In this document: piece by piece, positions 5,951-61,545 of the stretch | Position numbering within the stretch: the first letter of the stretch is position 1 | How the letters are laid out: each line of letters opens with the position of its first letter | The notes under the pieces: generated by a model | The model's database searches: none | Seen by the model: only the letters and a program-made list of their open reading frames with translations | Told to the model about the DNA's origin: nothing | NCBI GenBank assembly: GCA_019054805.1 | Contig: JAHQIY010000001.1 | Location: 5,036,501 to 5,100,500, forward strand | DNA length: 64,000 nt | From: Brachionus manjavacas | Taxonomy: Eukaryota > Rotifera > Eurotatoria > Ploima > Brachionidae | Direction of reading: 5' to 3' | Made by a program: the position numbers and the translations under genes

Positions 5951-6084
<134 letters not shown>

Positions 6085-7904: not shown

Positions 7905-10900
7905 ATGTCAAACATGTATTCGCCGACAGTAGCTGCACAGCAGACGTCGACGGCCTCCAACGCTTCCAGCACAAACAACACGACCAGTTCAAACAACGCT
8001 CCGGCTCCGACCAATCCTAATAATTATCCACAACAAACAGACTACTACTCGAGCTACCCGAGCACCTATTCCACCAACCAAGCGTACCACCAATTCCATC
8101 AGCAGCTGAATCCGCACCTGCTTCACGACCAAGGCAATCCAAACGATCTCATTTATTCTAATAATTTGAATGGTAATTGAAAAAAATAAATCCTAAATAA
8201 ATTTTTTTTTACTCTTTTTGTTCCAGGCATCCTGCCCCCTAACGAATATTGGCAATCGCATCAAGCTCCTTATTATGATGAACAGGTTGGAAAATTTTTA
8301 TATTATGACCTTTTTTTTGTCTTATTGCAAGAGCGATTTAATCGAGATTTGAAAGAAAAAAAAATGCATGCCCTACCATCATAAAAAATGAATCATCCTT
8401 TTGCTCTAAATGGGCTGATATAATTTTTATGATTTTTGTAAATTTTTACAAAAAAATTAAAATTATATTTAGAAATATAAAAATTTGAAACATCAGAATT
8501 GATTCAATATTTATGATATTTTTGAAATGTTTAAAAGAATCTTAATTTTTGAACATAAATTTTTTAGGTCATAAATCTTATTTTTTACTTAAATAATGAA
8601 ATTCTATAAGAAATTTTACAAAATAAAATTCATTTATTGTTCACTTAATATTTTTAAAAAAATCAATTATTTATTCATTATAAAAGATTATCTTTTTGTT
8701 TTAGAACTTGATATTCTTAATTTATTTACTATTAATTTTCAAATTTTAAATAATTTTCTTTGAAATTAAAGTTTTTCTTTTCAAAAATTAATCTTTGCAG
8801 TCATCAAATTCGAATAGTTACCAATAGTCACATTTTTCGATTAAAAAAAGAGATAAAATTTTAATATTTTAGCCATATTCCTACAAATTTTTTTAAACTC
8901 TTTACGTTTTGATTAACTTTTGAGTGTTCAATTTCTAGTATTTTTAAAGACAAATTTCACTAAAACTGAATAAAAAAATGTATCTTTTAAGTTTGATTTA
9001 AAAAGAAAAATAGAGTCCGAATTGGTTATCTCCCAAAATTTATCTTTAAATATCTATAATAAATAAAATTTTCTTAATAACTTTTTTGAAGAAAAAAAAT
9101 TCATTCTGAAAACTGTAAAAGCATAAACTTCAGATATTAAATCTTTAATTTAAGTGAGCAAAATAATTTCACATTTTCGTTAAATAATTTCTAGTGTTGT
9201 GTAAATTTTTTTTTTTTTTATTTAATTAAGCCTCATAGGCAAGTTTATAAAGAAAGTAAAACAAATATTAAGGTATAGTTAATTACATAACTACATAAAA
9301 ATTACATATAAAAAAGACTTTTAGTTAGTCATTTAAAATATTTAAAAAAAAAAATGGAAAAAGTTTTGTCCTTGTGACATATTATAACTATTGACAATTT
9401 AGATAAAATTTTGAAAGTCAGTCTGATTAATACACACTTTACAAGCAAATGTATTAATTATTATTATAAACTTTTTCAGTATAAAAACTGTAAGGAAAAA
9501 ATCAAATCGTAATAACAAATTCATAAAAATATTTCGGTTTTCCCATTGAATGAGGGAAAGATGTAATTATTGATGTAATTTTTGACCAGATCAAACCATT
9601 AAAAATAAATTGTTTCTAAAGCTAGATGAGTCTTCATTTTTGGTTCTCTCATCCGAACCTGAAACTAGAAACAAATCATAATCACATGTGAAAATATTAA
9701 ATATTCAAGCATGAGACGCAAAGAATCCATCAAAAACAGTCAGACATAGTATCGTGATTTTGAGTTTGATTTCAGTGCACACACTCAAAATAATAAAATA
9801 AATAGCTTTAAATTTTTTTTATTTTTAAATAATAATTTAGTTGAACTATAAAAATGTTTAGATAGTCAAATTGGAAAAATCTTTGATCAAAAATTTAATA
9901 GAAACATATTTAATTGTTCAAATTTCTCCATTTGAAATATAAAAAAAATTGAAAAAACTTATAAAAATCCATTTGTCAGTTATCAATGAATCTTTTGAAT
10001 AAATAAATTTAAAAAAAGAGAAATAGAAGGAATTTTTTTAAAACTAAAATTGGATATTAAAAAATACTGCGTCCGAATTTATGCCTTAAATTCTAAATTT
10101 TTAAACATTTAATTTTTAATTTCTAAACATTTATATTTTTCTACTAAAGCATTATTTAAAATTTAAAAATAAGAAAATTTTTAAGTTAAATGAGTGTAAG
10201 TCTGAGTGATTCATTTCAAAATAAATCAGATTAAATAAATAATTCTAAATTAAATTTTATTTATTTTATATTTGTAATTTAATAAAAAAAAAAATTTTGG
10301 TTCCATTTAAATATAACCAAAATAAGCGTTTAAATTAAAATTTAAATTATTGATATTGGCTTCTATCCTGATAGATAAATATCATTCAACAGATTTGTAC
10401 TAAATTAATGTGACACATTTGTTGTTTTGTAATTCTATTAAATGTAAAAAACTATTTTAACTCAAACGACCAGAATCATCTTCTTGCAGCCCACTAGTCT
10501 GATGCTCACATTCCTTTCGGTCTCAATTTACAACTAATTTGTAAGACTAATTAAAATTAGTCTTCTGTTTCAAAAGTTTTAAAAAAAAATTCAAAAACCT
10601 TTTAACTGAAAAATTCAAAAAATTAAATATTTTTTAAACAAATATTATATAATTTTTTTAATAATTGAATTAAATTATTTACCATTATTATTAATCATAA
10701 TAATTATTAATTAATCAAGTGTCAATATTTTTTCATAAATTAAGGTCTATTACAATGGTGACTATCTAGCTGCAGCTGCAGTGGCAGCAGCCAGTGTCGG
10801 TTCGCAAATGACACTGCCAGTTGTTGACTCATCCCGGTACCAAAAATCTCAGAATTTAATGTTGAATTCGTCGATGCCCAACTTAGCCAGCCAGACAACA

Positions 10901-11917
10901 TCATCTCATGCATCATCACTATACCCACCACCACCAGCCGAGTTGGCCTCGCAGCCACTGCCCTCGAACATTCACTCGACTTCTAATCCAAACTTGAACA
11001 CATGGACACAAGATCCGGCACTAAGCTATACAGACCCGGCTCTTGTTCACATTAACTACCCGTCAGAGCCCAACTATGCATCATCGTCTTCGTCGTCCGC
11101 CTCATCGGTGACCACCGAGCAAAAAAATCTGATTCAAACTCAGACCAAATCTTCGGCATCGTCTGCCAATGAGGACGACGACGATGACAATGACGAGAAA
11201 AAAATCCAAGCCAGTCTTCAAGCCAAACCACTAGTCTATCAATCTCAGAGTCAAAATTTAGCCATGGCACAAAATATGTCCAATCCGACCACTCCGATAC
11301 CCATACCGTCGCCGTCGATGGCTCCTGGCTGGAGCTCGAACCAGGCCTATTCGGTCTCCGTGCCCCAAACCAGCGCTGGTCTTGTTCTCACACCAAAAGC
11401 CAAAAACAGTAAGAATTCGGGCAAAAATTTGATCGCTCCACCATCATCTGTCGAGAACTCGCCCATTGACGACAACGAGACTCCCGAAGAGCGGGAAGCC
11501 CGCGAAAAAGAAAGAAGGGCGGCAAATAATGCGCGCGAACGCCTCCGAGTCAGAGACATCAACGAGGCGTTCAAGGAGCTAGGCAAAATGTGCGGCATTC
11601 ATCTCAAGTCAGATAAGCCGCAGACTAAATTGAGCATTCTGCAGCAAGCGGTCAATGTCATTACAAGCTTGGAACAACAAGTTAGAGAGAGAAATTTGAA
11701 CCCGAAAGCGGCGTGTTTAAAGCGCCGAGAAGAAGAGAAAACCGAGGACTTGAACCAACCGATAAGTCTGAACCTAACACCGAGTGGTTTAAATACACAG
11801 ATGGGTGGTAATGGATGCATGAATGATGGATTAAGTGCTGCCGGCCTGATGGGTCTACAAGGCCAGACTCAATCCAATCCTCAAATAGATAACTGGTGGA
11901 TGAGCGTAAGTGCTTAA
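7905..11917 (+). CDS. E-protein, class I bHLH transcription factor (daughterless/TCF3-4-12 type)
   Basis: Three coding exons, 7905-8172, 8227-8285 and 10745-11917, join in frame to 499 aa. The bHLH lies near residues 362-425. Its basic region [20 protein letters not shown] and second helix with [20 protein letters not shown] are diagnostic of class I E-proteins, as is the tail [16 protein letters not shown]. These factors bind E-boxes as homodimers or with tissue-specific class II bHLH partners in the nucleus. The N-terminus is rich in Ser/Asn/Tyr and lacks the AD1 motif (LSDLLDF) of long isoforms, so upstream exons may exist or this is a short form. The start ATG at 7905 is preceded by an A-rich leader. 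The last codons sit on a perfect splice donor (agc|gtaagt at 11906), so alternative 3' exons are possible. An AATAAA lies 78 bp past the stop. The second intron is 2.46 kb. Confidence 0.93.
8286..10744 (+). other. Large intron of the E-protein gene
   Basis: AT-rich. On the minus strand, at about 9190-9245, is a retroelement 3' end with the GCCTATGAGGC hairpin followed by a poly-A run (poly-T at 9208-9219 on the plus strand). No other structure was recognised. Confidence 0.6.
9190..9300 (-). mobile_element. Retroelement 3' end with poly-A tail
   Basis: On the minus strand, cttgcctatgaggcttaatt is followed by aaataaaaaaaaaaaa. The hairpin block matches 6466-6486 on the plus strand. It is interpreted as the 3' terminus of a LINE inserted antisense in the intron; the rest is unrecognisable. 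Confidence 0.5.
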
Positions 11918-21984: not shown

Positions 21985-23535
21985 TTATTGATATAGGTTT
22001 TTATTTTTTAAATCGATTATAACGTCATATGGTGTTTTAAAACGTTTTGGATTGTTGAACTCATTCGTTTTGTAGTTTTCGATTTCTCTTTTAATCAAAT
22101 TGTTGTTCTCGTTTGTTTTGACAAATTTCTGAAAAAGATTACTTAGTCGCGGAGCAATAGGTTCTATTTTGAGGTCGGAGTGAATGCACGTAAGTCTTGT
22201 TTTTAGCGGATATCTCTTGATAGATCTGAGCATTTTGTTTTGTTCTTTTTGAATTTCTTTTATGAATCTTTGAGTTCCAGTGTTTGCAATAACTTGACAA
22301 TAATCGTAAATCGAACGTATTAGTCTTTTGTAAACTATGCTGCAAAGATTTTTGCTGTTTTTAAGCTTGAGTTTTTTGATCGATTTAATAAGATTGAGCT
22401 TCGGGGCTTGTTTTGTTTTGATTTTATTTAGGTGTTTTTTGAAGTTAAGCTTTGGATCAAGGGTGATTCCTAAAAAAGTCAGGTTTGGAACTAATGGAAT
22501 TTCTGTTTGTTCAATTTTGAGATTCAGTTTGTATCTTGTGCTATAGTTTTCCCTAATTCCGGCTGCTGTAAATACCGTATAGTTAGTTTTAGATTCATTG
22601 ATGATAAATTTGTTATTTTTGCAAAAAATAGAAATATTGTTGAAGGAATTCTGAAGAATTTGTTTGAGCTCTTTTTTGTTTTTAGCTGAAGTCCAAATAC
22701 AAAGGTCGTCTGCAAATAAACCAACTTTTACATTGCTTAGTATGCTCTTAATTATGTCGCTAAAAAATATGATGAAAAGGGTTGGCGATAAACAGCTTCC
22801 TTGAGATACACCACACGAAATTTTTCTTGTTAGGGAAGATTCGGATCTGTATTTTACCAGAAATGATATATTCTTAAGAAAATCAATGATCCAGTTTGTT
22901 ATATTAATTCCAATATTTAACGATTTGATTTTTTCCATTATTCCTTGATGGGGTGTCCTATCAAATGCTTTTTAAAGATCGAAGAATACTGCTCCAGTTA
23001 TTTGTTTGTTATTAAAGCCTTGCAGAACTGTTTGAGTAAGTCTCAAGATGTGGTCTTGAGTAGATTTTGATCTTCTGAATCCTGATTGCTCGTCTGGAAG
23101 AATCTTTTCAATTTCAATCCAATTTTGAAGTTTTGTATTTATAATCATTTCGAGAAGTTTCATCAGGCATGGTATCAAAATGATTTTAGAAGTTTTCCAT
23201 TTCTGTGGGATGTGTCCAATTTCGAATGATTTGTTATATAAGTGAAGCAGGCGTTTTTGAAAGTTGATTGGCAAATTTTTAATTGTTTTGTTGGTAATAC
23301 AGTCTAGTCCCGGTGATGCATTTTGGTTGAGTCTGACAATTGAGTCACTAAGATCTTTTTTTCTGATTATATTATCTCTTGGATGTGTATTTAACTCATT
23401 AATTTTTGTATATATTTCAGGGCTAGAATTTTGATAGTTAAATACGTCTTCCAGGTTGTTCCCAAAGCTTTTAGCAATCTCTGATTCTTGGTAATGAAGG
23501 TGTTTGAGCTTGTTTTGAATCTAGTTGATTGACTA
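21985..23535 (-). pseudogene. LINE A reverse transcriptase domain (broken)
   Basis: The minus-strand frame is continuous from about 23490 to the stop at 21985 except for one TAA at 22972-22974. The stop falls in the first catalytic block, FFDL-stop-KAFD, where other elements have a sense codon. The YADD-type box is FADD. All polymerase blocks are otherwise intact, so the copy is quite young. It would reverse-transcribe the element RNA at a nicked target if functional. Confidence 0.88.
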
Positions 23536-23548
23536 CTTGTGTTTTGAT

Positions 23549-24621
23549 TAAGGTTCACGAAATTCAAAACTTTAGTGCTATCTGAATTTCACATTTTCGA
23601 CTCAAAATTCGTAATCTACGCCCTCGAAAATCCCAAAAAAAAAATTTTTTTGAAGGGGGAAAAAAAAAAATTTTTTACACCCAGGGTTCCAAAGATAGCA
23701 AACACTTTAAAAAGTTGTTGTTCTTTTAGACTCAAAATCTCAAAGATAAAACTTAAAAATACTAAAAAAGTATATATATTCTGAAAGAGCATAAAATTCT
23801 CTACATGCTAATGTAATTTAGAAAAAAAAAAGGGTGTGGCGGTTTTTGTGGGCTAAAAAAAGGAAAAAAATGTGTTTTTTCTGGTTTAAATCGTATCTCC
23901 TCCGAAGGATCAATTATGAACCGATTTTTTTTTTTTTTAAATCTAGACAAAATTCTGAACAAATCTATGGTTTTAATTTTTTATTTTATTGCTTTATTTT
24001 TCTTAAAAAATCTCTTTAAATCATGTGATTTTTAACAAATTTTTCAAACTTTAATTCTTTTGATATTTTTTTTCTAAATTTTACTAAAATTGTATCTTAG
24101 TATAAAAAAATTTCGTGAAAAATGCCTAAAAAATCAAAATATAATCAATCTCGTGTAAGTAACCTTGGAGATAAAGCAATAAAATAAAAAATTAAAACCA
24201 TAGATTTGTTCAGAATTTTGTCTAGATTTAAAAAAAAAAAAATCGGTTCATAATTGATCCTTCGGAGGAGATACGATTTAAACCAGAAAAAACACATTTT
24301 TTTCCTTTTTTTAGCCCACAAAAACCGCCACACCCTTTTTTTTTTTTTCTAAATTACATTAGCATGTAGAGAATTTTATGCTCTTTCAGAATATATATAC
24401 TTTTTTAGTATTTTTAAGTTTTATCTTTGAGATTTTGAGTCTAAAAGAACAACAACTTTTTAAAGGGTTTGCTATCTTTGGAACCCTGGGTGTAAAAAAT
24501 TTTTTTTTTGCCCCCTTCAAAAAAATTTTTTTTTTAGGGTTTTCGAGGGCGTAGATTACGAATTTTGAGTCAAAAATGTGAAATTCAGATAGCACTAAAG
24601 TTTTGAATTTCGTGAACCTTA
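23549..24621. mobile_element. Fold-back DNA transposon, two 447-bp inverted arms
   Basis: The segment 23551-23997 is repeated almost perfectly (about half a dozen mismatches) in inverse orientation at 24173-24619, with a unique centre of about 175 bp. The outermost bases are TAAGGTTCACGAAATTCAAA at both ends, and a TA dinucleotide lies at each edge, consistent with TA target duplication (Tc1/mariner-like superfamily); this is weak evidence because TA could be part of the arm. Joining the flanks restores the LINE A linker frame (NKIDNS | NQNTSS), proving insertion into the LINE. The unique centre holds an ATG with 11 codons and a perfect splice donor (24122-24160). A diverged single arm is at 54535-54795. 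Confidence 0.93.
24122..24160 (+). other. Possible relic of transposase exon 1 (11 codons plus donor)
   Basis: Within the unique centre of the fold-back element, aaaaATG starts the peptide MPKKSKYNQSR. It ends exactly at CGT|GTAAGT, a consensus donor. A basic N-terminal start of this kind is common in Tc1/mariner transposases. No downstream transposase remains, because the other arm begins 13 bp later. The function is inferred only. Confidence 0.35.
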
Positions 24622-25790
24622 CTGTTGTCTATTTTATTTAGAAGTTTCCAGTGTTGAGTATTTGATGGGTTAAAATTGTTTAATTCATTGAATTGCTTTG
24701 CGTTTTTTTCGGACTTGATTTTGTTGATTTCTTGTTTGATTTTTCTTTCATACATGTTGTAGAGTTTCTTGTGTTCCTGCGAGTTTGATTTTTGATAAAG
24801 TCGTCTAATTTTATTTTTAGTTTTGATCATATTTATGATATTGGATCATCGATGGATTTTTACATTTCGCATTAATACTGTATTTAATTGTTGATTGATC
24901 AAGAGCTCCATGTATTCGACTTGTAATGTCTGACATTTCCGTTTCTAGCTGGTCTGTGTTGAGTATTGTTTTTGGATCAAATGTAGTATTTAAAATGTTT
25001 TTGAATAGAGGCCAATTAATTCGTTTGTATTTCTTTTTTGCGATGTTTATGTCAATTGAGAAAGATGTTATGGTTGGCTGATGGTCCCCTATCGTATCTT
25101 TTAGAACTTTGTGGTTGTTGAAGAATTTAGAGATTGATTTTGAGCATATACTTAGATCAATGATGCTGTGTCCTTTTTTGAGAGTCGGCTCTTGAGAGTT
25201 TAAAACTTCTAGTTTATGTTGGATTATGAACTCATTTAAAATTTTTCCTTTACTATTTGGTTTGCGACAAAACCAATTGGCGTGTTTTGCATTCAAGTCT
25301 CCGATCAATAAGTGGTTTGTGTAGTTGCATGTGATGAAATTAAGAACGTTTATGTTGAAAGGCTCTCTTGGATGAGAGTAATAACTAAAAATAGCCATTT
25401 GTGTTGAATTATTTATTAAACATTTGAATCCTATTGCTTCACAGTCGAATGGAAAGTAAATTGGTTCACCGGGAATGTTTTTTTTTGATACAAATTGCTG
25501 CACCACCACCTTTCTTTTTTTGCTTTCTTTCGCTTCTATAAATGTTAAAATTATTTATTGCCAATTTGTTATATGGCTGTAGAAATGTCTCATTAATTGA
25601 AATTATATTGATACTATGCAGATTGACTAAATTTTCGATTTCTAGTATTTTTTGGTTATTTCGGATAGATTGACAATTAAGATGTAAAATGTTTAAAGGT
25701 TCTATTTCTTTATTCTTGGTCATTTTCATTTTCTATTTCTGGATTTGTTAGCTCATGAATTAATTTTAAAAAAATAAGGAAAATTTTTAT

Positions 25791-31900: not shown

Positions 31901-34900
31901 TTCATGTATTCTAATATTTATTTAATTTTTTTGTCCTTAAAAATATAAAATGATTTCCAAACTTTAGAATTAGCAAAAAAAGGTCAAAATATTGTTACAA
32001 AATTGAAGACTAAAACTATCTCCTAAAAAATGTAACTTTACAATATCTCAGGGAATTTCGCTAAAAATCAAAAGAAAAATCGAAATCTTTCTGGTAAAAA
32101 ATTCCATTCAATGATTAAAAATTCGGTCTTTCTTGGAACAAAATTAAACGAAAGTTTATGTTTTAACTCTCAATTAACTTTTTGATCATGATGTCAAGAA
32201 AGACTATATTTTATAAAAATTGTTCAAACAAATCAAGAAAATTAAGAAAAAAAAAAATTACAGTAAAACCTTGGTGTAAGGAAATGGATGAAACTGGGTT
32301 AAGACCATTCGTTTTATCGAATTTTGTTATTTCATAAATTTCATGTTAATGGATTTAGAAAAAGAATGATTTTTTAAAAAATTTTCCATAAAAAATAGTA
32401 GTCAATAAAAAATCTGCATAAACACCACGTCTCTTTTTACTAAAAAAATATTTAGGTATAAGAAGGTATATTATTAAAGAAAGATTATAAACGTTTATCG
32501 TTATTTCAAAGTGTTCGTTAATTCAATTTATTTTTTAAAAATTTTTGACTGTACTAGGTATTTAAAATTCTCTTGTAGGTTCCATGATCAATTTCAGCAA
32601 CTCTTGATTTTAAAACAAACATTTATTAACCCAAAGTATTCCATTAAATCGATTTACCAGCTCTCCTATGGTATATCTCTAAAAAGTATCTTCAGCTTTC
32701 TTAGTAATCAAAAAATTGATACATTCAAAGAAATATTTGAAAATCATTTTGTGAATTTTTTTCATTTACAATTTACAATGATACAATTTGCAGAGCAAAT
32801 TTTGGGCTTTTTAAAAAAAATTTATCAAGTTTTTTTCATTTAACAATTTTCTTTTGTTCTAAAATTAACAATTCCGTAATATTCTTGTTTTCAGCTTAAA
32901 TTAAATTCTTATTTTAAAAAAATTGTCTTTGAAGTCATCTAGAGTTTTTAAAAAAAATTTTCAGTGAACAAAAATTCTAATCATAATTGACAAAAAAGTT
33001 AAATAAAATAATCAAATAAATATTCTTCAATTTATTTTGACTGTTATCCGAAAAAGTTGACTTGATAGATATCTTTCTAAAATCATTTAAAAAAATTCTT
33101 ACAATTTTTTCACTTTTTTATCTTCATCTATATAAATTAACTTTTATTATTGAATTTTAAAAATTTAATAATTTTTATTATTGTAATTTAAAAATATATC
33201 TATTTTATGAAACAACATTTTATTATTCAAATTATTTTTTCATTTAAAAAAACTTTTTTTGAAAAAACTTTTTAAATTCAAGAAGTTATTTTTAAAACTA
33301 TATATTTAAAGAAAAAATATTTATAGAAAAAAACTTCATCTAATTAATACTTAAATCTATATTTAATTCACTTTCTAAATCAGGTATTTTAGAAATTGGT
33401 TAAAACATTCCATTAAATTTCTGGAAATTAAAAAAAAAGTATTTTTACATGCAAAGAGTTTTTTTAAAACATATTTTTTTTTAAAAAAAGTTATTTTAAA
33501 TGTTTGTAGCATTTTTAAAAGGAAATTAATTTTATTTACAAAAACAAGTATCCGACAAAAAAAATAAATTAAAAAAAATGAAAATTTGAAATTTAAATTT
33601 TTTCACTTATTAGATGATGATGAAATAAAATCGTTCACAGACTATTCGTCCCAATCGAGACTAAATAAAGAATTTGATGTGATTGGAATGTTGGGCCACG
33701 GAGCTTATGGTGAAGTTCTAAAAGTAAAAAATAAACTTGATCAGCGTTCGTACGCAATCAAGCGAATTCGAATAAACCCAAACAGCAAACACTACAATAA
33801 GCTAATCACCAGGGAAATAAAACTTTTGTCACGACTGAATCACGAAAATGTTGTCAGGTACTATTCAACATGGGTGGAACAAGACACAGAAGAATATAAG
33901 GAAAATGATGTAGAGTGCGTGCCAATTGATGACGACTTAAAGGATTTGAGTGATTTTAAGGACTTAAGTGATTTTAGTGATGAGGTAGAAGAAGATTCTG
34001 ACTCGAAAAAAGAAGCTTTGACACCTATTGAATCGGAGAGCGATTTTGACTTTGAGCCTGCTTCGTTCTCGTCACAATCGTCCGAAGAGTCTATAGGAAA
34101 AAATTTGCACAATAAAAAAGTAACCTTCTCTCTTAATAATAATGACGAATCGGACGATTCGGTCATATTTGCCGAGAACAGCTCGGAAAATGTGAAAAAA
34201 AAATCCACCAAAAAATCTGTCTCAAAAAAAAGTACCCAGACCAAAAAGCCAGCAAAATGCCGCCAATACATATTCATTCAAATGGAATATTGCGGTGGAA
34301 AAACACTCAAAGACCTAATAGACAATGGACTGTATCGCAACGAGGACAAAGTATGGGTGTTGTTCAGAGAAATCCTGCAGGGCTTGAATCACATACACGA
34401 ACAAGGCATGATACACCGAGACCTAAAGCCAAGCAATGTCCTAATCGATTTGTGTGGTCATGCCAAAATCGGGGACTTTGGTCTAGCTACATCCAGATTC
34501 AAGATTCAAAAAGAGCACATAACAGCACCGGGCATGTGCGACATAGCTCTCGAAGACAATGCTGTTTCGCTCAGTCTCACCCATGTGACCAACCCGACGG
34601 ACTCGCTCCAGCACGACTCTCAGTGTCTGAGCGGAGCGGTCGGCACAGCGCTCTATGTGGCCCCCGAGCTAATGATTCCATACAAAAAAAATAAGTACAT
34701 GTACAGCCAAAAGGTGGACATTTACAGTCTTGGAATTGTGTTTTACGAAATGTGTTTTCCATTCTCGACAATTATGGAAAGAATTTCGGTCCTACAAAAT
34801 TTGAGACTCAAGGATGCGGACATAAAAAGTCACATATGCGATGAGAAAAAGGACAAACAATTGTCTTTGATCAAGCTAATGCTCGATCATGATCCGTCCA

Positions 34901-37900
34901 TAAGGCCGTCGGCAAAACAACTATTGCTGAATGAGTCGATTCCGCGCAAGGAAGACGAAATAGCTTTGGAGGAATTGTTAGAGTATTCGTTCAAAAACAA
35001 GCAGTCCACCAACTACAAGCGAATTTTTAAGGCCATATTTGACCAAAAGTGTTCGTTGATCGACGACGCCTCATTCTATGCCACACATGCAAAGAATTTT
35101 GGCTCCTTGAGACTCCTGCAGATCAGGGAATGTGTTCACACTCAGTTAGTGCGCATTTTTCAGAACCACGGTGGATACATGCTCAATTATCCTTTGTTGA
35201 CACCATGTACAGAATTTTTTGATTACAACAAAGCCTACCGATTGACTGATGACTGTGGTCTTGTATTGTGCCTCGCCTACAATCATAGAGTAAAAAAACT
35301 GTTTGTTTATAATTTTATTAAATTTTGTTTTTTCAGATACCTTTTGCCAAGTGTTTGGCTAGAAATTATCTAACCAACATAAAACGATATCATATTGGCA
35401 AAGTGTTCACCGAAAAAATGAAACTAAGTGGTCAACATCCTAGAGAATATTTAGAGGCATCGTTTGATATAATAAGTTCTACGAATTCAGAGTAAGTTTT
35501 ATTTTAAAAATTATTTTTTTATCTGTACCGATCTAAAGCTTCTTTAGATTAAAACAAAAAATTAAATCATTAAATTTAATGTTAAATTTAAAAATTAAAA
35601 TAAGTTAACACAAAATGTAAAAGAGAATATTGCGACAGGTGCTTCATGTTTAAGTATTGAACGTTTCAGAAAAGAAAGAAGAAATAAAAGGATAGCAATT
35701 AAACAATGGTCAGCTTTTGTATTTATCTTGACTCAAACTCGCTTCCACCAGTCTGACCATCACTGGAACAGAATGACTCAGTTCTGTCCTAACATATCTC
35801 TCACTCAGCTCAAAAATTCGATTCGAAGCTGTTAGTAATTTAAGTTTATCTAGGACCTCGTGATGTAAAATGTTCGAGGAAGTATCATTTTTTTGTTCAA
35901 GAATGTAAAAATAAAATTAAACGTATTCTATTAATATAGGTTTTTGAGAATGAGTTAAAAGTATTGACCGAAATAAATCCAACTAAAGATTGATAAATGT
36001 TTTAAATTCAATTTTTTGTTTGACAAAATCTTGATTAAATACAGCCTTTAATTACAACGTTTCTTAATTTCATCTATTATTGTATAAAATTTAAATTTGA
36101 AATCAAAATTTATACCAAGAGACTTAGTTTCTTTTAAACTTAAAATTTTGAATTCATATTTAAAATATTAATTCTAATTCTAAATTCTAATTTTTAAAAT
36201 TTAGACATTTCGAAAAATCTGGATGAAATATCTATACTTGTTTAAGTTAAAAGCAAAGATCTAAAAGAAATATATAAGAAATATTAAGTTCTGTTTTTTT
36301 ATGATTTAAAGAATTAATTTTTTTAATAATATTTCAGCTTCTGAATAAAAAAAACTCCTTGTGATTAGATTCACGAAATTTAAGTCGAATTCTTTCAACT
36401 TCAATTGAGTGCAAGTAATCAACTGCTGTTTAGGTGAGGCTTGCCAGGATCCATCATAACATTTCTGAGACATACAACCCTAAAAATTTTCGATTGAACC
36501 CGCTTGAAGAACATTTGACGGATTGAAGTCTTTGGCCACAAAATTTTCTTCCATCCAGGTTGTGGTAAGTTTAGAGTAGTGTGTAATTTTTAGGGCAGGC
36601 CAAAAAATTTAGTCAAAGCCCGAATGATAGTTGTGTATGCATGGGACTATTCCCTTATTTTTTGGTGGACAGCAAATTTCTTACCTTACCAAATTTCTAA
36701 GATGTCGTTGACTGATTCCATTTCGGTTATTGACCCCTTTTCAGTTTTTTTTCCTTGCAGCTGTCCAAGTGGTTGGATGGTCCTTTATCGGCTCTCCAAT
36801 TTGAATACGGTCGATTGTTTTATATACTATACCTCCAACGATTCCTTGCTTTGTAAAGTGCACGATAAGATCTAATTTTTTTATTTGTAAAATCACACTT
36901 TTAACTGCTTTTTGAAAAGTTTTTCGTTCGGTAACAGAAACTTACATTTAAAAAAAAAATTGCAATAAAATGGCAAAGGTTTGTAATTTTTAAATATTTA
37001 AAAGTTGATCACCTGATCATTTGCATGATAGAACAAATAAACTTAAATTTAAATTTGCATCAATTGTAAAAGAAAATTTATTATTAGAATAAAAAATAAA
37101 TTTTTCTTTTTTAATTTTTGAAAAAATTTAAAAATAAATTATTTTCAAGAAAGTTCAGTTTTTTTTCACTGAATGCAACCAACATTCAAAACCGATAATT
37201 TTTAGCTTCGTTTAATCTATTTCATTTTTTTTTTAATTAAAATTTGTGATTTTTCAAAAATATTTAAATATTATTATTTATTTTAATAAGCACCTTAACT
37301 GATTTTGGTATAGTAGAAATTTTTTTTTAAGATTTATGACTTTTATTTTTTAATTCCCAACAAAAAAAACCTTTTAATAAAATTTCTAATTTAAATTAAC
37401 TTCAATTAAGTTGCTTACCTGAAATTGAAATCTTGAGTGTAATGAATGATGTCATTAATTCGTTCAATGAATTATCCAGTCAAAGCTATTTATTGGTAAT
37501 AAATAATTCGTTTTTGCTAAATGCCATTCTACATCATTGTCGCATTGCTGAATCCGATCAAAAAAATGTTTATTATCTACTTTCAGAGTATAATAACAAA
37601 TTGATTAAGTCAAGCGTAAGTTGTATTTATTGAATACATTCCAAAAATATATAAAAAAAATAAAAAATTTACCTATGACTTTTTTTTAGAATGCAACTCG
37701 TGAGAACCGGGCTGAATGGCTTAATGGTCGACTGCCACATTTAAACATGAGTGAAAGCACAATTGAAAAATTGCTCAATTTTTTGCTTAAAAGCGGTAAT
37801 TCGGAAGAGATTTTGTCCGAAATGAAAGCATTGACCAAAAGTGATAACAATTGGTCCAAATTAGCTAAAGAAGCCATCAGGCAAATGAAATTAATACTAG

Positions 37901-41482: not shown

Positions 41483-41800
41483 TTTTTAAATTAAATAAAT
41501 AGATAAAAAAATTTTCTATTTTCGTTAATTTTTATTACAGAGTTGTATAAATGTAACAAGTCCAAATAAAAATAGCCACTTTAATTAGCTTGTATTAAAA
41601 TTAAATAGTGTGGAACTATTAAATAAAAATAAAAATGATTATAGTTTTTATGTATTGACGATCTGAATACAAACCGACAAACTGAAATTTGAGTTTATTT
41701 AGTATTTTGCTCTACGTTGAACCTTCTCTAAAATAGTAACCTCCGATATGTTTGGTGGACTCCATATTGGCACTGTGTATCCATTTCATATCAGGCTCTA
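41483..41800. other. No gene seen
   Basis: AT-rich spacer after POP7, including its polyadenylation signal at 41494-41499. Confidence 0.5.
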
Positions 41801-42187
41801 CAAAGATGCCTAAATCCCTTTCAAAAAGGAATATCCAAAAATTGATGTTTTAAAGTATATTTTGGCTTAAGCCCAATATCTTGATGGTCAATATAAAAAT
41901 TTTATTAAATTTTTGAATAAAATCGCTTTTTTAAAGTTGCTTTTTTAATCTTTTCAATAAAATCTTCTCTGTTAGTAAATTAATGAAAAATAAATGGCTA
42001 GCTAATTCTCCAGATTTAAATCCTCTAGATTATTTCTATTGGAATGAAGTTGTGAGTTTAATGAATCCTTGTCAATTTACTAATAAAATTTTTATATTGA
42101 CCATCAAGATATTGGGCTTAAGCCAAAATATACTTTAAAACATCAATTTTTGGATATTCCTTTTTGAAAGGGATTTAGGCATCTTTG
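41801..42187 (+). mobile_element. Inverted duplication around a Tc1/mariner-like transposase tail
   Basis: The segment 41801-41908 (caaagatgcctaaatccctt ...) is repeated inverted at 42081-42187, with nearly perfect 108-bp arms. The 172-bp centre translates on the plus strand as KNKWLANSPDLNPLDYFYWN then EVVSLMNP. This is the last catalytic block (SPDLNPLDYxxWNxV) of a Tc1/mariner-superfamily transposase, so the third catalytic Asp is visible. The first two blocks are absent, so this is a rearranged relic. The right arm appears to continue the transposase frame (QFTNKIFILTIKI), so the left arm is probably an inverted copy of it. Confidence 0.78.
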
Positions 42188-42289
42188 TTTTAGGCATCCT
42201 GTCATAAATCAAAAATGTATTTTTAAAATATACATTTTTGTTTTGTATTATCTCTTTCTAAATTTTCTATCCGATTTGTAAATAAAAAA

Positions 42290-61423: not shown

Positions 61424-61545
61424 CAATTATAATTGTCCCTTTTCTATCCTAGCGGATAATAGAGAGGTGCTCATCTCCTTTTCAAAGAATTAGTACCCAG
61501 TCGAAATCGGTCTGTCTATTTTTATCACGAAACATTCGCCAGCAC
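61424..61545 (-). mobile_element. LINE family B 3' end, target of the family A insertion
   Basis: Minus-strand reading contains aaaaggagatgagcacctct then attatccgctaggatagaaa, closely matching 2562-2620. The family A copy inserted just beyond its tail (ataattgtgccacgctattta), which gives a relative age: B first, then A. Confidence 0.65.

Follow-up and report, generated by a model that had tools for sequence, protein, structure and literature searches.

The window analysed here, a 64,000-nucleotide stretch of the Brachionus manjavacas genome, holds host genes for a bHLH protein (10781-11917; HLH domain, E=1.7e-12) and for a protein kinase whose named matches are the eIF2-alpha kinase GCN2 (33586-35373), together with a microsatellite of 44 perfect ATA repeats (5952-6084) and a 59-nt inverted repeat, perhaps a dispersed one, whose 90% identical halves lie 59 kb apart (2569-2627 and 61425-61483). 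The feature under study is a palindrome that sits between the endonuclease and reverse transcriptase parts of a minus-strand LINE, a decayed element of the EN-RT type (Table 1). Inverted-repeat pairs were detected within the window at 23549-23831/24339-24621 (98% identity), 23822-23940/24227-24345 (99%) and 23926-23997/24171-24242 (100%), and these make up a single palindrome spanning 23549-24621. In a global alignment the two arms are identical at 442 of 447 aligned positions, with five mismatches and internal indels of 3 nt and 1 nt, and they are held apart by a spacer of ~174 bp, which agrees with an earlier note on this DNA that had described 447-bp arms with about half a dozen differences, separated by about 175 bp. 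The element runs from AGGTTCACG to CGTGAACCT with a TA abutting each end, and inward of the terminal TA both sides start with AGGTTCACGAAATTC. A second, smaller palindrome lies at 41800-42188, where 108-bp arms of 100% complementarity surround 173 bp; translated by eye, this middle reads WLANSPDLNPLDYFYWNEV, which we take, from its motif, to resemble a piece of a mariner transposase, and parts of the arms are present at other loci, some as inverted pairs.

Table 1. Coordinates of the palindromic element and of the LINE that hosts it (positions within the window).
Feature	Position	Strand	Basis
Left TA target site duplication	23549..23550		TA..TA borders in 15 of 15 two-ended copies; empty sites of siblings L018 and L023
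Left terminal inverted repeat (TIR) of the parent family, ~511 bp	23551..24061	+	common sequence of 5'-side and 3'-side arm copies
Part of the left TIR that is mirrored in the window copy	23551-23997	+	
Rest of the parent transposon's 5' leader	24062..24121	+	family sequence in copies of the same orientation
Beginning of the transposase gene (start codon, 16 codons; MPKKSKYNQSRVSNLG), interrupted at the deletion junction	24122..24170	+	frame continues in siblings as VFGQKKFIEEE...
Right TIR, shortened to ~449 bp by internal deletion	24171..24619	-	inverted-repeat and arm alignments
Right TA target site duplication	24620..24621		two-ended copies; sibling empty sites
Host LINE, endonuclease part	24817..25509	-	Exo_endo_phos_2, E=5.6e-17
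Host LINE, reverse transcriptase part	21985..22938	-	RVT_1, E=1.7e-15

The whole element was searched against its own 114-Mb genome, where the best 40 of 457 candidates were scored, and 39 loci were fetched with their flanks to give, together with the window copy, the 40 loci analysed here (L001-L008, repeats of loci counted elsewhere, were excluded). These loci are the top scorers against the entire element, a selection that favours copies in which one arm is complete. The best arm set the orientation of each locus; 'left' and 'right' are therefore defined by the window copy and need not agree with the gene. A 32-base pattern of the terminus, starting right after TAAR, has 230 matches in the genome at up to three mismatches and none when reversed as a control. 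The TA lies at the same terminal base in 36 of the 40 loci (the exceptions being L026, L030, L039 and L046), and the flanking DNA differs among copies. The outcome in which no other copy shares these ends is thereby excluded, and the proposal of the earlier note that a multi-copy mobile DNA element is nested in the LINE is supported by ends that are common to copies across the genome.

The spacer fared differently, as it had been described as unique DNA. Yet its 173 bp recur next to the left arm of sibling copies, with 99.4% identity in L009, L010 and L013 and 98.8% in L011 and L012, and the spacer is therefore family sequence; it comprises what remains of the left TIR, followed by the leader and by the start of a transposase with its first 16 codons. 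The centre is thus not that of a distinct palindromic fold-back element, as had been suggested, and the locus is better described as an internal-deletion derivative of a long-TIR transposon of the Tc1/mariner group.

What the spacer begins, its siblings continue. The open reading frame of the spacer, a start and 16 codons, runs on in these copies as MPKKSKYNQSRVSNLGVFGQKKFIEEE, and L029, which carries the arm at the 3' side of the gene and in reversed orientation, contains a transposase that is frameshifted and shows three catalytic motifs, ILIFHDESTF, FEIVVDNARTH and PKFHCELNPIEGL. The C-terminal part of this fragment, in which one in-frame stop was typed as W, matches DDE_3 (PF13358) with E=1e-7 and 32.4 bits against a cut-off of 28.6. 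Sequence common to both arm orientations extends to position 509 of L009 and position 516 of L025, and since copies of both orientations share an arm of ~510 bp, the parent had long TIRs of ~511 bp. These were closely similar at the two sides of the gene: no printed column of the alignment separates all eight young 5'-side arms from all three young 3'-side arms, although two of the latter are distinguished at column 414. A single large deletion, in which the first part of the gene is fused to its last, is common to L017, L020, L022, L024, L033, L035 and L039, and the deletion in the window copy is larger, passing from the left side through codon 16 directly to ~449 bp of the right TIR.

An intact autonomous copy was sought with two transposase pieces and with PF13358, for which the best 150 of 410 candidates were scored, and none was found; L029, which carries the transposase, is itself broken. 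When the catalytic C-terminal part of L029 was used as the query, its sole near-identical match in the genome was L029, the next best standing at 71%. These 150 scored candidates gave 142 DDE_3 matches with E no higher than 0.001, of which many contain stops or have short frames, and DDE_3-type transposases thus form a large and decayed load in this genome. A related transposase fragment, L051, was also fetched.

The earlier note had further claimed that removal of the element restores the reading frame of the LINE. This holds in so far as the frame crosses the junction when one TA is kept, but other frameshifts of the LINE lie nearby, and the score is slightly better without any TA (183 against 175 with one TA) because one of these frameshifts is then offset. 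The insertion point is traversed by five related LINE places at 75-76% identity, three of which were fetched and aligned and show small gaps near the junction. Because the host LINE carries these further frameshifts, the question of the target duplication was moved to empty sites of sibling copies. L018 is inserted in an abundant repeat, where the best 40 of 651 candidates all span the junction (query position 152), and in each of the five empty sites fetched there is exactly one TA and no gap near the junction, a single TA also giving the best score. The four empty sites fetched for L023 likewise give their best score with one dinucleotide, which reads TT, TG, CG and TG, respectively. In 14 of the 15 two-ended copies the borders share nothing longer than TA, while L013 shares 4 bp. 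The target duplication is TA.

The right terminus was tested as 32 bp with at most six mismatches within the fetched DNA. By this test both ends are present in 15 of the 40 loci, namely the window copy and 14 others, which display the TIRs at both ends that characterise the IS630-Tc1-mariner group, and 25 loci lack the right terminus. Contiguous right arms measure ~38 bp (L035), 50, 52, 93, 106, 102 bp plus a piece (L018) and 126 bp (L028 and L045), and continue through 163, 197, 206, 221, 240 and 274 bp to the ~449 bp of the window copy, which is the extreme of a continuum in right-arm length whose other members range from ~38 to 274 bp.

The one-ended copies are more heterogeneous. A recognisable right-end residue of 6-20 bp occurs in only four of the 25 (L015, L022, L025 and L030). 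In L015 and L022 it measures 17-20 bp, with two mismatches in L015 and, for the 17-bp stub of L022, a position further from the breakpoint; an exact stub of at least 6 bp at the breakpoint was seen in only two, L025 (6 bp, scan background 0.05) and L030 (12 bp, background 0.00). Stubs as a general feature of one-ended copies were rejected on this count. When L025, which lies in a LINE, is compared with one empty paralogue, the flanks are contiguous with one TA, and between them lie ~545 bp of element sequence plus a stub whose last bases are ACCTTA; the end stubs of L025 and L030 could have been left by incomplete repair or end-joining after excision. L021 has a diverged right end with 8 of 32 positions mismatched, and L042 offers only a 17-mer with three mismatches. 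In L022, positions ~990-1752, between the truncated left part and the stub, give a reverse transcriptase-like reading by eye. No convincing right end was found within the fetched DNA of the remaining 20 loci, which may have been truncated, may contain nested insertions or may have their right end further away. In L009 and L010, two near relatives of the window copy, unrelated sequence follows the break.

Built on direct observation of the palindrome, its family and their ends, the TA site, the transposase remnants and the empty sibling sites, the reading we hold with high confidence is that a cut-and-paste DNA transposon of the IS630-Tc1-mariner group, with long TIRs and insertion at TA, was the parent, and that the element is a non-autonomous copy of it with an internal deletion. 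The parent would have carried near-identical TIRs of ~511 bp around a DDE_3 transposase gene. Nearly all of that gene would then have been deleted, fusing the left TIR, the leader and 16 codons directly to ~449 bp of the right TIR, and the length and near-identity of the TIRs make the remnant read as a palindrome. Deletion derivatives are known in the Tc1/mariner superfamily; here, the deletions may have arisen by incomplete repair after excision, and the shortened copy was presumably mobilised in trans by the transposase of the parent, landing at a TA in the LINE. Two findings count against this explanation: the failure to find an intact autonomous copy, and the absence of a right terminus in 25 of 40 loci, which requires an additional explanation, also for the missing ends of L009 and L010.

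The arms themselves were compared in a set made up of both window arms, 14 left arms taken from the 39 fetched loci and six partial right arms, and the printed columns hold three substitutions private to the window left arm and one private to the right arm. This comparison bears on an alternative in which the right arm is a second copy of the left that template switching or gene conversion would have produced in the course of repair, so that the element would be a true fold-back rather than a transposon retaining the right TIR of its parent. Both window arms carry A at column 365, where the 14 other left arms have G in 13 cases and T in one, and no other two-ended copy (0 of 14) has a right arm contiguous from the terminus for more than ~274 bp; both observations favour such copying. 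However, no fully diagnostic difference distinguishes young 5'-side from young 3'-side arms, so that a normal right TIR would look no different; moreover, the window right arm is nearer to the left arm of the sibling L011 (three differences in 446) than to its own left arm (five in 447). We regard copying of one arm onto the other as unlikely, though deserving of some weight, and retention of the parent's right TIR as the simpler reading. The few differences between the arms and the nearness of the right arm to L011 fit a young insertion.

Long palindromes are in general prone to misassembly, and this proneness would favour an artefact in the form of a collapsed haplotype inversion or a chimeric read, yet the arms differ at five positions and by indels, a TA site stands at both ends, and siblings on other contigs have inverted arms of other lengths, which together leave an artefact very unlikely. 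We assign a similarly small chance to a hairpin locus retained by the host as a source of dsRNA or small RNAs: from the sequence alone, a read-through transcript would be predicted to fold into a long hairpin, but the anatomy is that of a transposon copy.

Matches of the transposase include hypothetical proteins of Brachionus plicatilis (91-92% identity over 14-22% of the query, and 68% over 65%), one fungal protein (Trametes) and one from Brachionus calyciflorus. A profile search returned 335 proteins; among the 120 listed, those with an organism name belong to the bdelloid rotifers Rotaria, Adineta or Didymodactylos, most of those listed being nameless, and some relatives are ~600 aa long. 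The spacing from the second D to the E was counted in 161 relatives, of which 90 lacking an unambiguous motif pair were dropped, and it is 116 residues in 41 of the 71 retained, the others having 112-134 and one 170; in the L029 fragment, pieced together by hand, it is ~118. The profile of relatives matches the Sleeping Beauty transposase in the PDB (E=1.4e-4), and the predicted structure of one relative (P0002) rose from a pLDDT of 33 when folded alone to 87 with 28 sequences.

A DDE_3 transposase and a TA duplication, both hallmarks of the IS630-Tc1-mariner group, are thus present, and together with the TIR anatomy they constitute the likeness to Tc1/mariner elements. The family departs from Tc1/mariner in the strict sense in its spacing, mostly 116 residues and therefore outside DD34-41E/D, as the spacing in those elements is 34-41 (PMC8533490). 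In the same source, the Sailor (DD82E) superfamily is described as spanning DD78E-DD111E, with a consensus HCELNPIEL around the E, predominantly TATA duplications, TIRs that usually begin GT/CC and, in one fungus, extra-long TIRs of 1362 bp; the word 'rotifer' is absent from the main text of that paper. Set against this description, our family has HCELNPIE around the catalytic E in L029 and similar residues in relatives, an enlarged D-to-E spacer and the build of a TIR transposon, with the extra-long TIRs of one Sailor fungus as a further parallel. It differs in a spacing of 112-134, with one of 170, that lies outside DD78E-DD111E, in duplicating TA (only TA in 14 of 15 copies, 4 bp in one) as opposed to predominantly TATA, and in TIRs that begin AGG/AAG and not GT/CC. 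Judged from these sequence features, the family shares one Sailor hallmark and misses two.

A parallel of another kind is Galileo of Drosophila, for which very long TIRs are reported, as are structurally varied copies, including copies with one TIR, the defects being ascribed to inefficient gap repair (PMC4168063). As in Galileo and similar Foldback-like elements, our family has very long TIRs, varied copies and one-TIR copies; however, Galileo encodes a transposase of the P type and duplicates 7-8 bp of its target, in contrast to the DDE_3 transposase and TA found here.

The suggestion of the earlier note that the family may be undescribed is consistent with our failure to find a description in the literature on rotifer, Brachionus, Sailor and mariner-type elements, searched mostly without full texts; nor did literature on the spacings DD112E and DD114E-DD118E yield a matching transposon. 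We tentatively propose, with a confidence that stops a little short of even, that the parent belongs to an undescribed, rotifer-rich IS630-Tc1-mariner lineage (DD116E, TA, near-identical TIRs of ~0.5 kb) that would be a sister or divergent branch of Sailor, and whose copies would degrade mostly by one-sided loss of an end into solo arms, stubs of 6-20 bp and near-perfect palindromes.

The striking palindrome can thus be understood as a transposon with long TIRs of which little more than the ends is left. Through this family the IS630-Tc1-mariner group gains a probable rotifer branch whose D-to-E spacing is unusually large, and the DD116E lineage is apparently undescribed. Long, shortened and stubbed right ends occur next to TA sites, a mixture that may preserve a legible trace of repair that failed once the element had been excised, and the long, near-identical inverted arms distributed across the genome are possible sources of rearrangement and of hairpin RNA.
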